A stretch of 64,000 nt of DNA from Sulfurirhabdus autotrophica (GTDB taxonomy: Bacteria > Pseudomonadota > Gammaproteobacteria > Burkholderiales > SMCO01), in NCBI RefSeq assembly GCF_004346685.1, contig NZ_SMCO01000011.1, positions 1 through 64,000 on the forward strand, in the 5' to 3' direction. Every line of letters starts with the position of its first letter. The stretch's first letter is position 1. A program made the translations under genes and the position numbers. The notes below the pieces were generated by a model, which saw only the letters and a list, made by a program, of their open reading frames with translations, ran no database searches and was not told the DNA's origin. This document shows positions 8,660 to 57,162 of this stretch, one piece after another.

Positions 8660-9088
8660 TTAAATGTCCAATGCTACAGGTTGCTGAGCAATATGTGGAT
8701 GCTCCGCACCAGCGTAGCACTTGAGTTTTTTCAGCATGGCATAACCCAAAGGACCTTTGGGCAACATGCCTTTAACTGCTTTTTCAAGTGCACGACCTGG
8801 AAAACGAGCCTGCATTTTTGCAAAGTTTGTTTCATAAATACCGCCCGGATAACCGGTATGACGGTAGTAAATTTTATCTTGTTCTTTATTGCCAGTAACA
8901 CGCAATTTTTCCACATTAGTCACAACGATGTAATCACCGGTGTCTACGTGAGGTGTATAGATTGCTTTATGTTTACCGCGCAAACGGTGTGCAATCTCGC
9001 TAGCGAGACGGCCTAGAACTTTATCTGTGGCATCAACCACAAACCAGTCGTGTGTTACCTCATGCGATTTAGCAGAGAAGGTTTTCAT
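8660..9088 (-). CDS. rplM: 50S ribosomal protein L13
   Basis: A 142-residue protein with typical L13 segments ([53 protein letters not shown]). It is the first gene of the rplM-rpsI operon. A likely promoter with TTGACA lies just upstream. Confidence 0.97.
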
Positions 9089-9128
9089 TCAGAAACCTCA
9101 GTCACTTATTAATTTGAGAAAGTCGCAA

Positions 9129-9158
9129 ATTTTATGTCAAAAGCCATCATGTTGTCAA
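9129..9158 (-). promoter_or_regulatory. Probable rplM-rpsI promoter
   Basis: On the minus strand TTGACA (9153-9158), an 18-bp spacer and TAAAAT (9129-9134) lie 40 bp upstream of the rplM start. The match is good, but the spacer is one base longer than ideal. Confidence 0.5.
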
Positions 9159-9263
9159 ACCATAATTGGATTATTTCTCTTTCCGACATACTTTAGCTTT
9201 CTGTTAGCGTTAACCAGATTGGCTTTTACCCATTCTACCATGTTTAGCTCCACCACCTATTTT

Positions 9264-9296
9264 AGAAAAAAAAGCGCAACCTATTTAGGTTGCGCT
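9264..9296 (-). terminator. Intrinsic terminator of the small-RNA candidate
   Basis: A perfect 10-bp stem (9273-9282 with 9287-9296) with a 4-base loop, followed on the minus strand by eight T. No coding gene ends into it. Confidence 0.85.
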
Positions 9297-9370
9297 AAAA
9301 TCCACCAAAGAAGGGGGATGGAGGAGACACCATCAAGACGCTTATTAAGATGGGGAAGCGTCCTGATGTG
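9266..9370 (-). ncRNA. Candidate small RNA with its own promoter and terminator
   Basis: A minus-strand unit with no ORF, set between the divergent rplM and ydcF-type genes. TTGCGC (9399-9404), a 17-bp spacer and GATAAT (9376-9381) give a promoter with start near 9370. The transcript would begin with a 12-13 bp hairpin (CATCAGGACGCTT pairing with AAGCGTCTTGATG). A C/U-rich single-stranded stretch containing UCUCCUCC, an anti-Shine-Dalgarno type motif, comes next. It ends in a perfect 10-bp stem (AGCGCAACCT / AGGTTGCGCT) and eight U. No protein gene on that strand needs this terminator. I do not recognise the family. Confidence 0.6.
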
Positions 9371-9474
9371 TTAGCATTATCTAATATAATAATATTTTGC
9401 GCAACTATTTTTTCTTATCACCCCGAATTCTTTATTAATCACATTTTCTCTTTTTATTTCAAGTGGAATCACCC

Positions 9475-10280: not shown

Positions 10281-10700
10281 ATGAAGGCACGTATTAAATG
10301 GGTTGAAGGGGTCAGTTTTTTAGGTGAAACGGAAAGCAATCATGCCGTATTGATGGATGGTTCGCCTGAAGCTGGCGGACGTAATTTGGGTGCGCGCCCA
10401 ATGGAACTCATACTGCTAGGCTTAGGAGGATGCTCTTCCTTTGATGTCGTCCTCATTCTCAAAAAACAGAGGCAAGACATTACCGATTGCGTTGCGGAAA
10501 TCAGTGCCGACAGAGCAGATAGCGACCCAAAAGTATTTACCCGCATCCACCTGCACTTTATTGTCACCGGGAAAAATTTAAAGCCAGAGCAAGTTGAGCG
10601 GGCTATCAAGCTGTCTGCAGAAAAATACTGCTCAGCCTCTATCATGATAGGTAAAACGGCTGAAATTACCCATGATTTTAAGATTATTGAAATCCAATAA
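10281..10700 (+). CDS. OsmC family protein (YhfA type)
   Basis: A 139-residue OsmC/Ohr-fold protein. The two redox cysteines of the family are present, in LGGCSSFDVV (about residue 51) and AEKYCSAS (about 114). The GARPMELILLGLGGC segment is typical of the YhfA branch, whose exact role is unclear, although Ohr/OsmC relatives reduce organic peroxides. AGAGAAGG precedes the ATG. It follows the DUF218 gene by 62 bp on the same strand. Confidence 0.85.
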   Translation: MKARIKWVEGVSFLGETESNHAVLMDGSPEAGGRNLGARPMELILLGLGGCSSFDVVLILKKQRQDITDCVAEISADRADSDPKVFTRIHLHFIVTGKNLKPEQVERAIKLSAEKYCSASIMIGKTAEITHDFKIIEIQ

Positions 10701-10779: not shown

Positions 10780-11106
10780 TTAGACTGGGTAGCAGCGTAC
10801 AGCGTAGTAAATATCTTTGTCGATCACTTCAAACAGGCGATCGATATTGGGATGTTTACCGGGATTCTGACGCGCATCTTCAGTGTGCTCTGCAAACAAA
10901 TCCAGCGCTTCCTGTGCTGCCTTAGGGCCGATTCCACCCCATTTTTTGGACACATGGTAGTAAACCCGGAAGGAGCCCTGGGCGCCCGGTTTGTTTTCTA
11001 TGCCTGCTTCTACCTCACCGCTTTCTCCAAACAATTTCATATTGCCAAAACTATCTGTATTTTCCAGCGTTGCCAGATTATCTTGAAAATTCTGCATTGA
11101 TACCAT
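10780..11106 (-). CDS. Conserved small protein of unknown function
   Basis: A 108-residue soluble protein that I cannot assign with confidence. It has an acidic N-terminal half and a conserved-looking centre, VYYHVSKKWGGIGPKAAQEA, then LFAEHTEDARQNPGKHPNID. It may belong to a DUF family of betaproteobacterial small proteins (DUF2322 was considered). No signal peptide or membrane helix is visible. TAGGAG sits 5 bp before the ATG at 11106, which supports real translation. It lies 33 bp downstream of coq7 on the same strand. Confidence 0.7.
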   Translation of the reverse strand: MVSMQNFQDNLATLENTDSFGNMKLFGESGEVEAGIENKPGAQGSFRVYYHVSKKWGGIGPKAAQEALDLFAEHTEDARQNPGKHPNIDRLFEVIDKDIYYAVRCYPV

Positions 11107-11139: not shown

Positions 11140-11766
11140 TCACACCCAATATGCTACGGTTGTCATGACCTTTGAATTGAGTTTCATTGCTTGCTTAACT
11201 GGAACTGGCAGCTCCACACCGCCATGCTGCAGGGCGGTGGTTGCATGTTTTGCTTCATCTTCTCTCATTTGCACCAGCACAGCGTGACTTTTTTCATCAT
11301 GCGCAGGCAAACGCTGCAAATGCCCTTCCAGATGCGCACCCACTTGGTGTTCCGTTTCCGCCAAAAAACCCAAACTCCATTTATCCCCAATGGCGCCTGC
11401 CAATGCGCCAATGGCTAATGATCCGGTGTACCACAAAGGATTAAGAAAGCTTTTGTGGGTACCCAATGCCTGGATCCGGCTTTCGCACCAGGCCAAATGC
11501 TCTGTTTCTTCTGCTGCTGCCTGCTTCAGTGCTTTTTGGGTTTGAGGGTCACGCGCGGTCAGAGCCTGCCCCTGATATAACGCTTGGGCACAGATTTCGC
11601 CACTATGATTGATGCGCATCAGGGCGCCTGCCAAGCGTTTTTCTGTGCTGGTTAAGTCAGGCTCTGGCAAATCTGCTCCAGGCAGGGGTCTTGCTGTTTG
11701 CGCTTTCGTAAACAGCGTACGCAACCCTTTATCAAAATTAATAATGACGTGATCTATATTCAACAT
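11140..11766 (-). CDS. coq7: Demethoxyubiquinone hydroxylase (Coq7)
   Basis: A membrane-associated di-iron monooxygenase that hydroxylates C6 of the ubiquinone ring. The 208-residue protein shows the ferritin-like carboxylate/histidine ligands: Glu in NHSGEICAQ, EETEH, Glu in VGAHLEGH and EDEAKH. This Coq7 form replaces UbiF in many betaproteobacteria. Two further ubiquinone flavin hydroxylases lie at 28.9-31.3 kb. It overlaps the glcF stop by 7 bp. Confidence 0.93.
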   Translation of the reverse strand: MLNIDHVIINFDKGLRTLFTKAQTARPLPGADLPEPDLTSTEKRLAGALMRINHSGEICAQALYQGQALTARDPQTQKALKQAAAEETEHLAWCESRIQALGTHKSFLNPLWYTGSLAIGALAGAIGDKWSLGFLAETEHQVGAHLEGHLQRLPAHDEKSHAVLVQMREDEAKHATTALQHGGVELPVPVKQAMKLNSKVMTTVAYWV

Positions 11767-57085: not shown

Positions 57086-57162
57086 TGGTGGTGATAAGTG
57101 GACTTGAACCACCGACCCCAGCGTTATGAGTGCTGTGCTCTAACCAACTGAGCTATATCACC
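57086..57162 (-). tRNA. tRNA-Met (CAT anticodon, elongator type)
   Basis: A 77-base cloverleaf with encoded CCA. The acceptor is GGTGATA / TATCACC, the D arm GCTC...GAGC, the anticodon CAT lies at 57126-57128, and the T arm is GGTGG-TTCAAGT-CCACT. The first acceptor pair is normal and the anticodon stem lacks the three G-C pairs of initiators, so it is elongator Met. A CAT tRNA-Ile2 (lysidine-modified) is a remote alternative. Confidence 0.93.

Follow-up and report, generated by a model that had tools for sequence, protein, structure and literature searches.

The stretch of DNA analysed here (the window) comprises 64,000 nucleotides of the Sulfurirhabdus autotrophica genome (contig NZ_SMCO01000011.1, positions 1 to 64,000 of the forward strand) and carries, on the minus strand at 9266–9370, a gene for a small regulatory RNA (sRNA) with a predicted transcript of 105 nt, whose start was placed at 9369/9370. 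An earlier note, made from the letters alone, had located the gene correctly in both coordinates and strand, and its view of the RNA as bearing an anti-Shine-Dalgarno (anti-SD) stretch with potential for pairing to several ribosome-binding sites was judged to be right. What looks new at this locus is a repressor-type dyad that lies over the sRNA promoter and is apparently shared with the gene of an ArsR-family protein resembling sulfur sensors.

A covariance-model search of the 64-kb window matched the segment 9266–9329 (minus strand) to the Rfam family RF02278 (Betaproteobacteria_toxic_sRNA) with 61.3 bits, at a gathering threshold of 50, and the E-value of 6.9e-10 over the 64-kb window indicates more than a chance match. 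The features by which membership was judged, a CU-rich anti-SD stretch, a hairpin and then a terminator hairpin with a U tract, were all found in the RNA. It is an sRNA of a known family, and this identity is in itself ordinary; the earlier statement that it fell into no known family was mistaken, as shown by the Rfam score and by a gene neighbourhood that recurs around homologues from other families of the order. Besides the sRNA, Rfam gave a single match at the gathering threshold in the window, a tRNA (57089–57162, minus strand). A second RF02278 copy (52.2 bits, threshold 50) is present in the same genome on contig C5 (the window copy being on contig C11), flanked on one side by a gene that we take to be dnaE and on the other by a WbuC-family cupin gene. 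Among 399 sampled genomes of the order, with no further genome from the organism's own family available for comparison, RF02278 was detected in 251 at E ≤ 0.001 (152 above the cut-off).

The promoter consists of a -35 element TTGCGC (9399–9404) and a -10 element GATAAT (9376–9381), separated by a spacer of 17 and read in the same way by the earlier note. It agrees with the sigma-70 consensus at 8 of 12 positions only (counted by eye) and for this reason was not listed by a consensus scan. Its support comes from conservation instead: in the gapless alignment A2, TTG was present in all 19 sequences and was followed 20 bases on by GANNNT with the spacing kept, the part of this agreement that does not depend on how the sequences were chosen (for a dyad that includes GA) being TTG and the last T only. 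For these 19 sequences, which represent close relatives, the RNA could be aligned from the promoter through the terminator, so that promoter, motif and terminator were all found to be conserved. In total, 23 sRNAs were folded; L133, L157, L169 and L174 were omitted from alignments A1 and A2, as the dyad was absent or out of register.

The 105-nt RNA folded with an energy of -41.6 kcal/mol (z -7.36), and none of 200 shuffled sequences folded as well. Three stems were predicted, two of them strong, so that the two strong hairpins of the earlier note were recovered and a weak middle one has to be added. The 5' hairpin (13 bp, 9331–9368) lies beyond the Rfam model of 64 positions. It is followed by the anti-SD stretch UCUCCUCC (9320–9327; core TCTCCTCCA), which is predicted to be mostly free, as had been proposed, with an unpaired probability of 0.52–1.0 per base. 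The weak middle hairpin (9300–9319, from fold and alignment) contains a second C/U site at 9317–9312, which reads CCCCCT in the window copy and CCTCCT in 18 of the 19 aligned homologues, the sibling copy included; with differing second sites, the siblings may differ in their targets. The intrinsic terminator (9266–9296), likewise anticipated by the note and supported by both fold and terminator prediction, combines a 10-bp stem (9296–9273) with a U tract. The claim that the transcript holds no open reading frame was nearly right: a 12-codon ATG frame (9295–9333, minus strand, start at 9333) overlaps the anti-SD core, but a coding role was rejected because the aligned sequences do not keep its start codon. 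The bases GUGU at 9330–9327 resemble, by eye, the published cleavage site of the Bordetella pertussis sRNA S17.

Conservation was assessed in loci fetched from the better-scoring matches of the 399-genome scan rather than at random. After exclusion of L159 (the same place as L158) and with no sRNA found by pattern in L132, L149 and L176, 58 distinct loci were counted, including both loci of S. autotrophica. The core was present in 58 of 58, in part because the search pattern already required most of it, and the second C/U site in 52. By context, 30 loci (the window included) fell into a neighbourhood of rplM, osmC and coq7, where homologues from other families of the order are found too, 11 lay beside dnaE or wbuC, and 17 elsewhere. 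In the window, this neighbourhood comprises a downstream gene that is presumably rplM (8660–9088, minus strand), an osmC-family gene (10281–10700, plus strand; PF02566 and NF008009 above cut-off) and a gene that we take to be coq7 (11140–11766, minus strand), which lies within 2.4 kb of the sRNA with three genes between. A DUF2322 gene (10783–11106, minus strand) is located between osmC and coq7, and a similar gene was found in L134. When 80 named coq7 loci were searched with model R1 (E ≤ 0.1), the window alone matched and the sRNA was found in none of them; as these loci were not screened for rplM, this does not establish that the sRNA is truly missing from the locus.

The operator-like dyad ATATTAGATAATGCTAAC (9370–9387, minus strand) spans the -10 element, its arms being ATTAG and CTAAC with a single base off a perfect dyad, and obtained the best matrix score in the window (25.8 bits, the next being 12.1); it is the proposed ArsR site. 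A dyad of the form ATTAG-N6-CTAAT covers the -10 element at both sRNA promoters of the genome, one arm being imperfect in the window copy, and ATATTAG-N6-CTNAT-like dyads lie across the -10 element at these two and at 17 sRNA promoters of relatives. With at most one mismatch, the genome of S. autotrophica contained four such places: the two sRNAs, the intergenic region between an ArsR-family gene and a gene for an RND-efflux adaptor, and a site upstream of ccoN. Dyads with two mismatches (31 places, 15 in the backward control) were not used; among the part of them that was inspected, several fall within genes.

The ArsR-family protein in question, whose gene (L179, 1002–1319) lies outside the window, has 105 amino acids and is 85–96% identical among orthologues across several families of the order, a degree of conservation that is unusual in so small a repressor. 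The 18 genomes selected for an sRNA dyad contained 50 dyad sites as compared to none in the backward control, 21 of the 50 being sRNA promoters (20 flagged, one assigned by coordinates), and every one of these genomes gave a single ArsR orthologue (85–95% identity in the 17 other than S. autotrophica). An independent test was provided by 22 further genomes that had not been chosen for the dyad. Nine of them encoded an ArsR orthologue (53–96% identity) and together contained 23 dyad sites (one palindrome being counted on both strands) versus none in the control, whereas the 13 arsR-less genomes, which belong to other families and possibly have another base composition, a point that weakens the contrast, contained one site versus three in the control. 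Pooled, there were 73 sites versus none in 27 genomes with arsR and one versus three in 13 without; the dyad goes together with arsR.

A matrix built from the 19 sRNA promoters placed a dyad within 300 nt on the 3' side of arsR in 14 of the 18 genomes, and in two of the nine others, at a score that no more than 1 of 100 shuffles reached. Across these 16 arsR-linked sites, conservation is confined to the arms (1.82 bits, versus 0.58 at the centre), a difference to be read with caution because the same matrix picked these sites and arm conservation is thus partly built in. The -10-like sequence GANAAT occurs at none of the 16 arsR-linked sites, compared with 14 of the 19 sRNA sites. An ordinary RF02278 sRNA with a housekeeping promoter, in which the dyad would be an extended -10 or discriminator rather than an operator, might explain why the sRNA dyad sits exactly on the -10 element and why GANAAT is kept there; however, it does not account for sites that keep the arms without the promoter-like centre, for a dyad that follows arsR from genome to genome, or for its position beside arsR with its efflux genes and beside rhodanese genes, and is improbable. 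The conserved arms without a -10-like centre favour an operator over a mere promoter element, and the dyad is likely to be an operator under ArsR control, from which repression of the sRNA by ArsR may be inferred.

Near the -35 element of the sRNA, a different motif, TTGC..GCA.CA, was present in 14 of 39 dyad-less loci (L138, L140, L142, L145, L153, L154, L160, L162, L163, L165, L168, L171, L173 and L175; 0.15% in shuffles), where perhaps another regulator acts in the families concerned; PhaR was considered for this role.

In three of the nine arsR genomes not chosen for the dyad, a dyad precedes an RNA of the same kind. These RNAs differ in their fit to the family model: L347, next to a dnaE-like gene, scored 49.0 bits with RF02278, just below 50, and L344 scored weakly (28.7), while L333 (1334–1425, genome G030), which has a perfect dyad and lies beside a WbuC-like gene, reached 44.5 with RF02278 and passed the NmsRb model (RF02877) with 64.6. 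L333 fits both models and shares the neighbourhood of the second S. autotrophica copy, which suggests a single family with RF02278 and NmsRb as its branches. The NmsRb model also matched the window RNA over its full length, with 46.2 bits at a threshold of 52. These likenesses would fit a regulator of central carbon metabolism that is tied to amino-acid starvation, in the way of the Neisseria NmsRs to RelA, with sulfur playing no part; raised NmsR levels are reported for a relA mutant (PMC5362039). This explanation leaves the association of dyad and arsR unaccounted for and is rather unlikely; it bears on the targets and on an additional input, and is compatible with control by ArsR.

The best solved relatives of the candidate repressor are BigR (3pqj, 3.3e-17), YgaV and HlyU, with whose cysteines its C35 and C101 align. 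In proteins of this type, sulfur bridges the two cysteines and the protein leaves the DNA, according to the published work (PMC12423496, PMC10451225, PMC10509353). Two cysteines were present in the aligned stretch of at least 26 of 27 orthologues, and the general ArsR/SmtB subfamily model was passed (86.4 versus 55). In L212, L213, L227 and L345 (families f42 and f47), a dyad precedes a rhodanese-like gene beside a membrane-anchor-like gene, one of these being confirmed by Pfam and the rest identified by eye. The sulfur-oxidation gene soxX scored above cut-off in 20 of 21 genomes examined. No ArsR was found in viral contigs.

Several observations weigh against the proposed wiring or its link to sulfur. 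ArsR scored 76.9 bits with the NCBIfam BigR equivalog, whose cut-off is 155, and in G030, a genome with ten dyad sites and no soxX above cut-off, its first cysteine is a tyrosine. The most regular neighbour of the dyad is an efflux system. On the 5' side of arsR, sites at the level of at most 1 of 100 shuffles were likewise found in five of the 18 genomes, with lower scores (7.6–10.1 bits). ATTAGA is absent upstream in 39 of 59 sRNA entries, so this wiring does not hold for the sRNA family as a whole. Upstream of soxX and ccoN, the dyad was mostly missing: it passed in 6 of 29 soxX matches tested (out of 38 over the cut-off) and in 7 of 27 ccoN matches tested (out of 36). Sites near soxXY, a TusE/DsrC gene and ccoN in the S. 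autotrophica genome were kept as weak, given that chance alone would yield about 10 sites of at least 15 bits and 5 of at least 16 bits in a genome this large.

Sulfane sulfur as the signal is consequently the weakest step, with about even chances. Control of the sRNA by ArsR in response to something else, such as an efflux substrate, a metal or a redox cue, would agree with the regular occurrence of the dyad next to arsR at a gene for an efflux adaptor or an outer-membrane protein, with the cysteine lost in G030 and with the scarcity of dyads at soxX, but it sits less well with the two cysteines of nearly all orthologues, with persulfide sensors as the closest solved relatives (PMC12423496, PMC10509353) and with dyads at rhodanese genes in two families; it is possible, but on balance doubtful.

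How such an RNA may act is indicated by published relatives. S17 depends on Hfq, undergoes RNase E-dependent processing and directly represses BP2158 through its 5' site, repression being restored by compensating changes (PMC11722255). For NmsRA, mutation of either anti-SD site was reported to end the repression of all tested targets but gltA, for which the second site alone was required (PMC5362039). Overexpression of ncS27 attenuates the growth of Burkholderia cenocepacia (PMC5688073, PMC4603805) and its silencing has the opposite effect (PMC5688073), and four family members are described in Herbaspirillum seropedicae (PMC7011215). By analogy, the window RNA would block ribosome-binding sites as well; two hfq genes are present in the genome. 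When 60 roughly called gene starts of the window were ranked by duplex energy, the order was uninformative, with gltA in 33rd place of 60; the calls themselves are uncertain, and one or more of them (9027–9374) must be doubted, as it overlaps the sRNA. The family name, given for growth inhibition in Escherichia coli, and the slowed growth under ncS27 overexpression might point to a truly toxin-like RNA that arrests growth as a general translation blocker. Growth inhibition on overexpression in E. coli, however, differs among relatives (PMC5688073, PMC11722255), and S17 is described as having specific base-paired targets and only a modest effect on entry into stationary phase (PMC11722255), so that a toxin of this kind is very improbable.

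The most coherent explanation is a trans-acting RF02278 sRNA that acts by anti-SD pairing and whose promoter carries an operator bound by ArsR and relieved by a signal; taken as a whole, it is probable. Briefly, free UCUCCUCC would pair with Shine-Dalgarno stretches with the help of Hfq, as published for relatives, and several mRNAs would be translated less. Both sibling copies would be transcribed from promoters whose -10 element lies inside the ATTAG-N6-CTAAT operator; the protein that most likely occupies this operator, and so blocks transcription, is the conserved ArsR repressor of the BigR/YgaV/HlyU group. A signal, perhaps sulfane sulfur or a persulfide, would release ArsR and switch the translational brake on, with joint induction of the efflux genes that neighbour arsR and, in part of the genomes, of a rhodanese gene. 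The narrower proposal, that a two-cysteine ArsR sensing sulfane sulfur directly represses the sibling anti-SD sRNAs, so that reactive sulfur would put a broad brake on the translation of metabolism and transport genes in betaproteobacteria that mostly oxidise thiosulfate by gene content, falls somewhat short of an even chance, its odds being lowered slightly by the cysteine lost in G030.

In the literature searched, which was restricted to open papers, no link of an RF02278-type sRNA to an ArsR was found. Why the sRNA accumulates in B. cenocepacia is called unknown in one report (PMC5688073), and for S17 repression by an unnamed factor is only postulated (PMC11722255). RF02278 sRNAs are common, and a candidate operator with a candidate repressor makes their control testable. 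If true, the narrower proposal would amount to a circuit from sulfur to translation, and this large sRNA family would have its first named transcriptional control.

Compared with known systems, the candidate ArsR resembles the repressors BigR, SqrR, YgaV and HlyU in sequence and in both aligned cysteines but stays below the BigR equivalog cut-off; an sRNA target of these repressors was not found in the open literature searched. The CUCCUCC RNAs of alphaproteobacteria, to which the earlier note had compared the transcript, are an analogy only, the relatives found being betaproteobacterial. The RF02278 members ncS03, ncS05, ncS27 and ncS62 of B. cenocepacia and bdhR1 share with the window RNA the sequence, the anti-SD core, the two 3' hairpins and the U tract, whereas the window RNA is the longer one, its 5' hairpin not being covered by the model, and has the dyad over its -10 element where several other families carry TTGC..GCA.CA near -35. 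S17, which could be compared by description only, also has a 5' anti-SD site and a terminator and lies near coq7, but is directly adjacent to it, whereas the window sRNA is three genes away; it is made as a 190-nt precursor with a 67-nt processed form, as opposed to the 105 nt predicted here, and the Results of the S17 report do not describe such a dyad at its promoter (PMC11722255). Because S17 is also found beside coq7, the two are plausibly positional orthologues. Neisseria NmsRA and NmsRB (RF02877 NmsRb; NgncR_162/163) show the same three-stem layout with a 5' hairpin and match the window RNA over its full length, but these siblings are arranged in tandem, whereas those of S. autotrophica are located on the separate contigs C11 and C5.
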